Source of the DNA: Thalassospira sp. MCCC 1A03138
Lineage (GTDB): Bacteria; Pseudomonadota; Alphaproteobacteria; Rhodospirillales; Thalassospiraceae
Length of the DNA stretch: 64,000 nucleotides
Reading direction: 5' to 3'
Assembly: GCF_002115785.1 (NCBI RefSeq)
Contig: NZ_JFJY01000007.1
Location: 124,001-188,000 of the forward strand
Every line of letters begins with the position of its first letter. Within the stretch, counting starts at the first letter, position 1. Shown piece by piece: positions 1,566 to 5,191 of this stretch. The notes under the pieces are model-generated. The model made no database searches. It saw nothing but the letters and a program-made list of their open reading frames with translations, and was not told where the DNA came from. Made by a program: the position numbers and the translations under genes.

Positions 1566-3035
1566 TCAGCTTACCCCTTTGCCAATCGGGAAGCTGTTGA
1601 CATAGGCCTCGGGCTGATCGGGATCGAACTCTTTGCCCATGATCGTGTATTTCTGATAGGTGCTGTCTGGTGCTTCGTAACCAAGGTCTTTCATGATCTT
1701 GGCGCAATCGGCCGCGACATAGACTTCTTCGGCGATTTTCTTGTAATCGACATCGCCGTCGATATAGCCCCAGCGCTTCATCTGCGTCAGAATCCATACA
1801 CCCATCGAATGCCATGGGAACGGATCGAAATCGATGCGATCCGGCACGTTTTTGACCTCGCCCAGACCATCGGCATACCGCCCGGTCAGGACCTGTTCGA
1901 TGACCGGCACCGGCTGGTTCAGATAGTTGGTCGGCGCGATTGCTGCCGAAATTTCCTTGCGGTTCTCCGGCTTGGATGCGTATTGCGTCGCATCGACAAT
2001 CGATTTCAGAAGCGCGCCATAGGTATTGGGCATTTCATCGGCAAATGCCTTGGAACAGGCAAATGCACAGCACGGATGACCTTCCCAGATATCCTTGGTC
2101 AGGGTGTGGATGAAGCCGATTTTTTCCCAGACGGCACGCTGGTTGAACGGATCAGGCGACAGATAACCATCAAGGTTACCGGCACGCAGGTTGGCGACCA
2201 TTTCGGGCGGCGGAACGACACGGATCTGGATGTCTTTATCCGGGTCAAGGCCATGTTCGGCGACGTAGTAACGCAGCAGGAAGTTGTGCATCGAATATTC
2301 GAACGGCACACCGAACTTGAAGCCCTTCCACTGTTTCGGATCGCGTTTATCAAGATGGTCGTTATGCAGGACAATCGCCTGCCCGTTGATGTTTTCAACT
2401 GCCGGCATCAGGAACGGGGTCGCGGTCGAACCCGCCCCCATGGTGATGGCAAGCGGCATCGGGGTGAGCATATGCGACGCGTCATATTCATTGTTCAATG
2501 ACTTGTCGCGTGCGACCGCCCAGCCCGCGGTTTTGATCACATCGACATCAAGGCCGTATTTCTCATAAAAGCCCATCGGCTGGGCCATGATGATCGGGGT
2601 GGCGCAGGTGATCGGAACAAAGCCGATATTAAGCTTGGTCTTTTCCGGCGTGCCCAGATCATCAAGGATCGCCGCCTTGACCTTATCCAGCGGCAGGACG
2701 GACGCCAGTGCCGCCATCATCGTGCCGCTGCCAACCATTTTGGCAAAGGAACGACGTGAAATCTCGTTATGCCCGAAGACAGAGCGGACCACCGCACTTT
2801 CAATCGCGCGATCCAGCATTTCCTCGCTGCTGGCAAGCTTGCCAGACGACGAAGCAACGCCATCCACAGCCATATCGCTATGGGCGGGCATCGATGCCAG
2901 ATCGTATGTGTCTTCGTGATGGTCATGACCGGCATGGTGATGTTTACCGGTTGCGCAAGCCTCGCAGCCGCACGATTTGCTATGCCGCAGATCGCTTTCG
3001 CCACTGAATGGATCGCCCAGACTTTTGATAGACAT
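1566..3035 (-). CDS. nrtA: NrtA/CmpA-type periplasmic substrate-binding protein with Tat signal and metal-binding-like N-terminal extension
   Basis: This is the substrate-binding protein of the importer, 489 residues from the ATG at 3035, which follows an AGGGGGTG ribosome site. Longer in-frame upstream readings run through the promoter and were rejected. A twin-arginine motif SRRSFAKM is at residues 93-100 with a hydrophobic stretch to about 116. About 92 residues precede it, including CGCEAC and a HHHAGHDHHED cluster at roughly residues 22-42. The mature part (IGFVPITCATPIIMAQPMGFYEKYGLDV and on) is typical of the NrtA/CmpA/CynA family. An internal binding-pocket signature such as HPCCAF is visible. 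Expression is probably from the sigma-54 promoter at 3098-3114. Confidence 0.9.
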   Translation of the reverse strand: MSIKSLGDPFSGESDLRHSKSCGCEACATGKHHHAGHDHHEDTYDLASMPAHSDMAVDGVASSSGKLASSEEMLDRAIESAVVRSVFGHNEISRRSFAKMVGSGTMMAALASVLPLDKVKAAILDDLGTPEKTKLNIGFVPITCATPIIMAQPMGFYEKYGLDVDVIKTAGWAVARDKSLNNEYDASHMLTPMPLAITMGAGSTATPFLMPAVENINGQAIVLHNDHLDKRDPKQWKGFKFGVPFEYSMHNFLLRYYVAEHGLDPDKDIQIRVVPPPEMVANLRAGNLDGYLSPDPFNQRAVWEKIGFIHTLTKDIWEGHPCCAFACSKAFADEMPNTYGALLKSIVDATQYASKPENRKEISAAIAPTNYLNQPVPVIEQVLTGRYADGLGEVKNVPDRIDFDPFPWHSMGVWILTQMKRWGYIDGDVDYKKIAEEVYVAADCAKIMKDLGYEAPDSTYQKYTIMGKEFDPDQPEAYVNSFPIGKGVS

Positions 3036-3097
3036 GTGGTCACCCCCTGTTTTGTTTACGCCGCCCGTCAGGCGACACCGATATTCGGGGTGATAAC

Positions 3098-3114
3098 AGC
3101 AACCGGCGTGCCAG
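3098..3114 (-). promoter_or_regulatory. Sigma-54 (-24/-12) promoter of the nrtABC-type operon
   Basis: Read on the minus strand, the sequence is CTGGCAC-GCCGG-TTGCT. It has the invariant GG and GC dinucleotides at the correct spacing and matches the RpoN consensus TGGCAC-N5-TTGCW. It lies about 65 bases upstream of the nrtA ATG at 3035, which leaves a leader of roughly 50 bases. An enhancer-binding protein of the sigma-54-activating class is encoded divergently. The match and placement are seen directly. Activity is inferred. Confidence 0.85.
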
Positions 3115-3183
3115 ATTTGTGCGGCGCGAAAAACTCTAGGGAAAGACTGGACTTTGGCCCGAAACAGGCGCAATCTCGGGTCA

Positions 3184-3236
3184 TACGAAATTTCGTAATT
3201 TACGATATTTCGTAACCATATTTACGAAATATCGTA
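3184..3236. promoter_or_regulatory. Three palindromic activator-binding sites (candidate upstream activating sequence)
   Basis: Three 14-bp palindromes with consensus TACGAWATWTCGTA occur at 3184-3197 (TACGAAATTTCGTA), 3201-3214 (TACGATATTTCGTA) and 3223-3236 (TACGAAATATCGTA). Their start-to-start spacings are 17 and 22 bp. They sit about 70-140 bp upstream of the -24/-12 promoter, the usual place for sites of a sigma-54 activator. The third ends 11 bp before the activator's own start codon, so autoregulation is also likely. The repeats are seen directly and their role is inferred from position. Confidence 0.8.
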
Positions 3237-3247
3237 GGCCAATCACG

Positions 3248-5191
3248 ATGGATCAGATTGCAAACCCGCCACCCCCAACGGTTTCGGATGCCCTGTATCA
3301 ACAGGCGCTTGCATCGCATATTCATCCGACATTGCTGGTGCATCCGCAAAGTGATCGCATCGTGTTTGCCAATCAGGCGGCGGCGAATTTGCTGGGCCGC
3401 AGCATTTCCGATCTGAAATCCACCGCCATGAGCAGCCTGCACAAGGGACAGGTTCCAAGCCTTGTGGTGTTCAGCCAGGCCGCCCTTTATCACGGCTTTG
3501 CCTGGACGCGGGGCCTTAACCTGATGCATTCCGATGGCACCGAAATCCAGCTTGAACACGAGGCCCGCGCCCTGCACTGGGAGGGCGAGGATTACCTGAT
3601 CATCATCCTGTGTGACCTTGATGCCCGCCACCGCCGCGACGTCGATGCCGAGGCCGATAATTACCTGCGCGAAGGCATTGCCGAATGGCGGCGGGCCGAA
3701 CGGTTTTTCCGTGAAATCGAACGCGAAAACCAGTTGATACTGGGGGCGGCGGGCGAAGGCATTTACGGGGTCAACAGCGACGGCATCACCACCTTCGTCA
3801 ATCCGGCTGCCGAACGGATGCTTGGCTGGACGGCCGAGGAACTGGTGGGCAAGGAAATCCATTCGATCATCCACCATTCGCATATCAATGGCGATCCCTA
3901 CCACGCCGAACATTGCCCGATTTACAATGCCTTCCGCGAAGGCATCGTTCGGCGCGTTGATGACGAGGTTTTCTGGCGCAGCGACGGCAAACCGATCCGG
4001 GTTGAATATACCTCCACCCCGATCCGCGATCATGGGCTGGTGATCGGGGCTGTGATCGTGTTTCGCGATATCACCGAACGTAAAATTGCCGAGGAAAAGC
4101 TGCATGCGGCGCTTGCCGAGGTCGACCGCCTGCGCGAAAGGCTGGAACTTGAAAACGCCTATCTTCAGGAAGAAATCCTCTCGACCAACAACCACCACGA
4201 AATCATCGGCCAGTCCGAGGCGATCAATAGTGCGCTCAAACAGATTGATCTGGTCGCCCCGACCGATGCCAACGTCCTGATCACCGGGGAATCGGGCACC
4301 GGCAAGGAACTGATTGCGCGCGCCATCCATCAGGCAAGCCACCGGCGCGACCGTGTTCTGGTGCGCGTGAACTGTGCCGCCATCCCCCATGAACTGTTCG
4401 AAAGCGAGTTTTTCGGCCATGTCCGCGGTGCCTTTACCGGGGCCGTGCGCGACCGGGTTGGCCGGTTTGAACTGGCCGATGGCGGAACGCTATTTCTGGA
4501 CGAGGTCGGTGAAATCCCGCTGGAACTGCAGGGCAAGCTTTTGCGCGTTCTGCAGGATCAGAAATTCGAACGCATCGGCGAGGAACGCACCCGCGAGGTC
4601 AATGTAAGGTTACTGGCCGCCACCAACCGCGATCTCAAGGAAGAAGTCCGGCTCGGCCGCTTCCGCGAAGATCTGTATTTCCGCCTCAATGTGTTCCCCA
4701 TCAAATGCCGGCCCCTTCGCGAACGGCCTGACGATATCCCGCCCCTGGCGACACATTTCCTGCGCAATATCTGCCAGCGGCTGAACATTCCGCAACTGAC
4801 CCTGACCAACGGGCAGGTCAGAAGCCTGATGAAATATGACTGGCCGGGCAATGCGCGCGAACTTGAAAACATCATCGAACGCGCCGCCATTCTGGCCCGC
4901 GACGGCAAACTGAATTTTGACCTGCCCGAACCCAACCGCCGCGAAACAGATCATGGCAATGCCAACCCAGCGCGTGATCAGGCAAGCCCCCAATCGGCAA
5001 TCCTGACCGAAGATGACCGGCGCAAACACGAATATGACAATATCATCCGCGCCCTTGAAGCCACACGCGGCCGGATTTTCGGCCCCGATGGCGCGGCGGC
5101 CCTTTTGAATGTAAAGCCGACAACACTGGCATCGCGGATCAAAAAACTTCGGATTGACCGGCGTGATTTCACGCCATCGGGCCAGCAATAA
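3248..5191 (+). CDS. PAS-domain sigma-54-dependent transcriptional activator
   Basis: This is a bacterial enhancer-binding protein of 647 residues, divergent from the nrtABC-type operon. The N-terminal PAS-like region spans about residues 20-125. A second PAS domain follows at about 160-285, ending in the usual FRDITERK junction. A short coiled coil at about 285-312 precedes the AAA+ domain, with Walker A GESGTGKE at 347-354, the sigma-54 contact loop GAFTGA at 394-399 and Walker B LFLDEVGE at 415-422. A Fis-type helix-turn-helix closes the protein (AALLNVKPTTLASRIKKL). There is no receiver domain, so the signal is probably sensed by the PAS modules. It probably activates the transporter promoter at 3098-3114 through the sites at 3184-3236. 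Confidence 0.92.
   Translation: MDQIANPPPPTVSDALYQQALASHIHPTLLVHPQSDRIVFANQAAANLLGRSISDLKSTAMSSLHKGQVPSLVVFSQAALYHGFAWTRGLNLMHSDGTEIQLEHEARALHWEGEDYLIIILCDLDARHRRDVDAEADNYLREGIAEWRRAERFFREIERENQLILGAAGEGIYGVNSDGITTFVNPAAERMLGWTAEELVGKEIHSIIHHSHINGDPYHAEHCPIYNAFREGIVRRVDDEVFWRSDGKPIRVEYTSTPIRDHGLVIGAVIVFRDITERKIAEEKLHAALAEVDRLRERLELENAYLQEEILSTNNHHEIIGQSEAINSALKQIDLVAPTDANVLITGESGTGKELIARAIHQASHRRDRVLVRVNCAAIPHELFESEFFGHVRGAFTGAVRDRVGRFELADGGTLFLDEVGEIPLELQGKLLRVLQDQKFERIGEERTREVNVRLLAATNRDLKEEVRLGRFREDLYFRLNVFPIKCRPLRERPDDIPPLATHFLRNICQRLNIPQLTLTNGQVRSLMKYDWPGNARELENIIERAAILARDGKLNFDLPEPNRRETDHGNANPARDQASPQSAILTEDDRRKHEYDNIIRALEATRGRIFGPDGAAALLNVKPTTLASRIKKLRIDRRDFTPSGQQ

Follow-up and report, generated by a model that had tools for sequence, protein, structure and literature searches.

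The stretch between 3098 and 3236 of the window (the whole 64-kb stretch of Thalassospira DNA that was analyzed) raised the question of which protein occupies three perfect palindromes lying between a transporter operon and a divergent activator gene, and which of the two flanking transcription units the palindromes serve. We conclude that the three-site array very probably scaffolds the activator, CynF, for sigma-54-dependent activation of cynABDS on cyanate. A reading made from the sequence alone had labeled the first transporter gene nrtA, part of a nitrate/cyanate-type importer, and NrtA is the best match of its product among solved structures; the gene proved to be cynA of the cyanate system CynABD with cyanase. 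The cyanase is the single PF02560 match in the whole genome and, because cynABD and then cyanase make up the divergent run, the activator was assigned to the CynF type. Its ATG at 3248 is the earliest ATG, GTG or TTG start of the frame, its Pfam matches follow the order PAS-PAS-AAA+-Fis (a PAS/AAA+/Fis activator in the sequence-only reading), and the protein is 99% identical to those of Thalassospira xianhensis and T. lucentensis. Pseudomonas pseudoalcaligenes CECT5344 has the same gene order, cynF and divergently cynA-cynB-cynD-cynS, and we read region 3098-3236 as the control region common to cynF and cynABDS (Table 1).

Table 1 Features of the cynF-cynABDS control region and its genes, in window coordinates unless stated otherwise
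Feature	Position	Strand	Description
Sigma-54 (-24/-12) promoter of cynABDS	3114-3098	minus	CTGGCAC-GCCGG-TTGCT, 0 mismatches to consensus
Operator site 1	3184-3197	no strand	TACGAAATTTCGTA, 0 mismatches; center ~-104 from predicted cynA start
Operator site 2	3201-3214	no strand	TACGATATTTCGTA, 0 mismatches; ~-121 from predicted cynA start
Operator site 3	3223-3236	no strand	TACGAAATATCGTA, 0 mismatches; ~-143 from predicted cynA start
cynF	3248-5191	+	two PAS, AAA+ (GAFTGA), Fis-type HTH; PF00158 and HTH_8 above cut-off
cynA	1566-3035	minus	PF13379, NrtA/CmpA-type periplasmic binding protein; cyanase in same gene run
cynB (permease)	734-1564	minus	nitrate-type family, TIGR01183 above cut-off
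cynD (ATPase)	1-722	minus	nitrate-type family, TIGR01184 just above cut-off; runs past left window edge
cynS (cyanase)	contig C31:123316-123774 (= L085:13317-13775), outside window	after cynD	PF02560, E 5.3e-35

The three copies of the palindrome TACGAWATWTCGTA at 3184, 3201 and 3223 were recovered as first read, with centers 17 and then 22 bp apart and all three within 53 bp. There was no further perfect copy in the 4.56 Mb genome (33 contigs), and the next best match in window or genome carried 2 mismatches, with none at fewer. When up to 3 mismatches were allowed, 9 matches (3 perfect, 6 weaker) were found in the window against 4.0 expected, an excess of weak look-alikes that would fit a chance or non-regulatory repeat. 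The probability that the repeats are of this kind is nevertheless negligible, given three perfect copies in so short a stretch, unique in the genome, and an array whose presence and spacing are conserved across genera. No IHF-like match was found in the window, while 25 of 78 loci had one against 5.5 expected from simple shuffles; this search used an IHF consensus with 1 mismatch allowed, and its result was not used as evidence. A sigma-70 promoter for cynF, as predicted in Pseudomonas (PMC6627978), was not found at 3030-3330.

Conservation was scored with an array model derived from the window alone, consisting of triplets of TACGA-N4-TCGTA with allowed center distances of 15-19 and then 19-25 bp, and a locus passed when its score lay above those of all 100 dinucleotide shuffles of its upstream region. 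The pooled input of 128 loci was reduced to 110 distinct loci by dropping 13 duplicates, 2 that were too short and 3 without an activator. The array exceeded all shuffles in 105 of these 110, which include many close relatives, above all Bradyrhizobium, and are not 110 independent cases. This comparison of orthologous intergenic regions, which the sequence-only reading had proposed, thus came out in favor of the palindromes. Center spacings in the 105 arrays were 17/21 (50 loci), 17/22 (37), 17/23 (10) and 18/22 (8), and the letters of the 630 half-sites (T 0.58, A 0.91, C 0.93, G 0.97, A 0.92) gave the operator consensus tACGA-N4-TCGTa. In the first locus set, made up of the best 80 of at least 590 CynF candidates, 75 of the 78 loci with enough upstream sequence exceeded all 100 dinucleotide shuffles.

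CynF was present in 19 of 385 genomes of an alphaproteobacterial sample, called by the gap between matches at E <= 1.5e-73 and PAS-only matches at E >= 5.9e-56 (in one of the 19, G327, the match begins only at residue 114). The genes cynA, cynB and cynS lay nearby in all 18 CynF loci of this sample other than that of the window, and 15 of the 18 carried the array as judged against mononucleotide shuffles. A phylum-wide sample held CynF in 19 of 398 genomes, and by the same mononucleotide test the array was found in 14 of 14 further loci, although L126, L120, L122 and L123 from this sample were later found to duplicate earlier loci. Five of the 110 distinct loci failed the array test. Three of them (L079, L099 and L100) combine altered recognition helices with degenerate sites at the array position, L099 failing by 2 of 100 shuffles and L100 by 1; L081 has two palindromes 23 bp apart in place of a triplet, and L101 has no array and a CynF match that begins only at residue 113. 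L083 failed once, with 3 of 100 shuffles scoring as high, and passed under another region definition.

Palindromes of such size fit many dimeric regulators, and site 3 is placed as a repressor site would be, next to the start of cynF, so the array could be read as the operator of a separate regulator, for example a dimeric cynF repressor or a global nitrogen regulator, with CynF binding elsewhere. We regard this as improbable. The array accompanies CynF or NitA genes, and the exact pair ACGAN4TCGTN5ACGAN4TCGT occurred in 4 of the 385 alphaproteobacterial genomes, once each, always just upstream of CynF and nowhere else, with no match to the reversed pattern in the same 385 genomes. The array also keeps its place beside the activator whichever gene comes first on the divergent side (cynA, cynS, an FNT transporter gene or nitB), and a global regulator would need sites elsewhere, whereas the genome has only the three perfect copies. 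Finally, the third operator base varies with the recognition helix of CynF itself. This helix was placed at about residues 624-633 of the window CynF in an AlphaFold model (mean pLDDT 77.8, pTM 0.39). In the 80 loci without Tyr 628, half-site position 3 was C in 474 of 480 half-sites, while of the 84 half-sites in the 14 loci with Tyr 628, 60 had C and 20 had T, a count that takes in chance sites of L101, which has no real array. The two loci combining Gln 625 with Tyr 628 had T in 11 of 12 half-sites, and TATGA also prevails among the half-sites that accompany NitA in Acinetobacter, where the recognition helix contains NPTTLIS. There were exceptions in both directions, three loci with T lacking Tyr or Gln and three with Tyr lacking T. 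On well supported branches the comparison came down to 2 pairs, of which 1.8 on average were concordant (sign test p 0.5). These sequence comparisons support a shift of operator bases with the CynF recognition helix; because the changes arose independently only a few times and the paired test did not reach significance, the covariation supports direct binding by CynF and does not prove it.

The -24/-12 promoter that the sequence-only reading had placed between transporter and activator points at the transporter genes, divergent from the activator. By the usual -12 rule, the predicted cynABDS transcript start lies near 3087, 52 bases ahead of the divergent-gene ATG at 3035. Exact matches to TGGCACN5TTGC numbered 3 in the 64-kb window against 0.14 expected from base composition. 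Allowing up to 2 mismatches gave 111 matches against 88.7 expected, and for this reason the motif by itself is weak evidence. The evidence for a sigma-54 promoter is its conserved position, not the motif alone: a -24/-12 site directed toward the structural genes was present in 102 of the 105 array-bearing loci (12 of 14.5 points or more on the scale used here), and in the other three (L069, L074 and L102) the site fell below this limit. RpoN is encoded in the Thalassospira genome. Sigma-54 control of the transporter, as first proposed, is supported by these results.

The distance from site 1 to the -24/-12 site in the 102 loci was 66, 76-81, 87-94, 99-103, 111 or 121-122 bp, with no locus between these ranges, so that the distances step by ~11 bp. 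A quick tree of 97 CynF proteins, for which the HTH was left out, requires at least 9 changes of distance class. This suggests that insertions and deletions between array and promoter persist mainly as whole helical turns. The ~11 bp periodicity was spotted post hoc, and its p of ~0.01 comes from a simulation on hand-picked class positions; a lineage-level phasing simulation repeats values and was not relied on. Distances gathered later fell mostly on the same ~11 bp steps, 94 and 99 being borderline values.

The spacing bears on a further reading, in which the array serves cynF autoregulation only and the activation of cynABDS comes from CynF in solution or from another activator, such as NtrC. 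Some enhancer-binding proteins act without a strict need for an enhancer, and the array adjoins the activator gene in the loci examined. In Pseudomonas, cynABDS is induced by cyanate and repressed by ammonium, for which the authors propose the Ntr system (PMC6627978). Against this, steps of ~11 bp between array and promoter are expected if the array serves the structural-gene promoter, and a cynF mutant of P. pseudoalcaligenes CECT5344 had no cyanase activity, CynF being essential for cynABDS expression (PMC6627978). We consider activation that bypasses the array highly improbable.

In the mechanism that we favor, with the array acting on cynABDS, CynF dimers would bind directly to the three palindromes, whose centers lie 17-18 and then 21-23 bp apart, and the array would scaffold a CynF AAA+ ring, presumably a hexamer by analogy with NorR, ~100-145 bp ahead of the sigma-54-dependent start point. 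Cyanate would switch the ring on, probably through the cytoplasmic PAS domains, and the active ring would reach sigma-54 RNA polymerase by a DNA loop and turn on cynABDS. With only 11 bp between the end of site 3 and the cynF ATG, occupancy of the array should at the same time hinder cynF transcription, and CynF would thereby repress itself. In 15 Bradyrhizobium loci, site 3 directly precedes an in-frame ATG. The arrangement of site and start codon suggests that autoregulation is likelier to be repression than activation.

A sigma-54-like TGGCA-N6-TTG was observed 2-4 bp past site 3, toward cynF, in seven gammaproteobacterial loci (L070, L073, L075, L077, L078, L080 and L084), where a sigma-54 promoter may lie on either side of the array, the two facing away from each other; no second sigma-54 site toward cynF was present in the window. 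A TGGCA following site 3 in the 15 Bradyrhizobium loci and L063 was rejected as a promoter, since its letters belong to the adjoining ATG. Nothing in this analysis supports the suggestion of the sequence-only reading that the oxidation state of the substrate is sensed; in Pseudomonas, the inducer described is cyanate (PMC6627978). A sensing site specific for cyanate was considered in PAS2, as His205, His209 and Cys223 were invariant in 81 of 81 CynF rows, and was dropped when all 13 of the other PAS proteins inspected, a subset of 22 PAS-only matches, proved to have the same residues.

The closest genetically studied system is cynFABDS of CECT5344, which resembles the window in its divergent regulator, cynABDS order, Fis-type sigma-54 activator and a sigma-54 site predicted before cynA (PMC6627978). 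P. mendocina, a close relative whose genes are 97-98% identical to those of CECT5344 (PMC6627978), carries the three-site array (L073), and its CynF, taken as a stand-in for the CECT5344 protein, is 55% identical to the window CynF. The main text of PMC6627978, Figure S1 apart, gave no match to 'palindrom' or 'intergenic', so the operator is not described there. A 2025 survey of alpha- and gammaproteobacteria lists cyanate lyase among the genes over-represented downstream of sigma-54 promoters (PMC12316311). The arrangement of the array has a counterpart in NorR-norVW, where three tandem inverted repeats next to a divergent regulator precede a sigma-54 promoter, are essential for activation and scaffold a higher oligomer; the NorR sites predicted for P. 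stutzeri hmp, at -192, -173 and -148, have a spacing similar to that of the window (PMC2941729, PMC1274295). NorR differs in sensing NO with a GAF domain and in its core GT-N7-AC, whereas the window CynF has two PAS domains and the operator tACGA-N4-TCGTa; PAS and no GAF domain was among the sensory Pfam matches of the window activator, which scored 378 bits with the NorR equivalog model, below the cut-off of 476.

The array also accompanies activators that face other structural genes. NitA is, like the window CynF, a PAS/AAA+/Fis protein (49-55% identical over the best segment) with the same kind of array, spaced 18/22 in NitA loci and 17/22 in the window; it is divergent from nitBCD and controls nitrilase genes (PMC11049912), whereas the neighbors in the window are cyn genes. 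The nit1C cyanide-assimilation clusters under NitA made up 4 of the 110 loci (L128, L142, L144 and L147), the array lying between the CynF relative and the nit1C genes in L128 and in the three Acinetobacter plasmid loci, which were selected by NitA match and of which L142 has a duplicate, L143. The nit1C nitrilase was found in 4 of 369 genomes, with activator and array beside it in one (L128). The stretches from the other three (L139-L141) held no CynF/NitA-type gene, which could lie further off, and a general link between nit1C and the array was rejected on this count. The Acinetobacter plasmids that carry nit1C, a NitA-type activator and the array (L142, L143, L144 and L147) were typed as mobilizable.

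Among the first set of 80 loci, the best of at least 590, nine had a divergent cyanase with neither cynA nor cynB found in the stretch. Five loci (L126, a duplicate of L078, together with L127, L130, L131 and L132) pair cyanase with a relative of the formate/nitrite transporter family (PF01226 tested on L131 only) next to a CynF-type activator and the array, and neither CynA nor CynB was found in their stretches. That FNT proteins carry cyanate is an existing hypothesis (PMC10753782), to which these loci add regulatory context.

Sigma-54 control and the role of the activator are already known in kind; what appears new is the operator, together with its breadth and the fact that CynF and NitA share it. 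The sequence-only reading had proposed a new operator for this PAS-activator type, and of this the conserved operator stands, the activator itself being already known as the CynF type. No earlier description of the operator was found in the literature searched, which mostly excludes subscription journals and leaves Figure S1 of PMC6627978 apart; the only passage on palindromes in a paper that mentions cynF as well concerns GntR regulators (PMC5333837). CynF was known genetically, with no DNA target in that literature, and the array offers a testable one. A defined operator makes cyanate regulons predictable from sequence, is of use in cyanate biosensor design and opens cross-talk between cyanate and cyanide assimilation to test, and the natural ~11 bp distance series is a ready set for the DNA-looping rules of sigma-54 activators. 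A wider reading, held tentatively and with a slight lean against it, is that CynF and NitA form one family with a single three-site enhancer code, by which cyanate and cyanide assimilation in alpha- and gammaproteobacteria would share a DNA address, with one-face ~11 bp steps, cross-activation and a helix specificity code. If this is true, each activator could drive the operon of the other in bacteria with both clusters, coupling the pathways, and from helix variants at residues 623-628 the DNA specificity of Fis-type HTH domains could be read as a code.

Some further features of the cyn clusters were observed. At E 1e-55, CynF was not matched in two genomes of the window's genus (G267 and G705), so the genus may carry the cyanate genes only in some of its members. 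In a Bosea plasmid cyn cluster, a gene for an NTF2-family protein separates the binding-protein gene from that of the permease (L146:1954-2439). The window CynA and its relatives have a long N-terminal stretch ahead of a twin-arginine motif, 57-126 residues in 20 rows when counted from the most upstream ATG, so that some are over-long. This stretch often contains His and a Cys-x-Cys motif, with a His-rich run in the window CynA, and judging from these residues it possibly binds metal.
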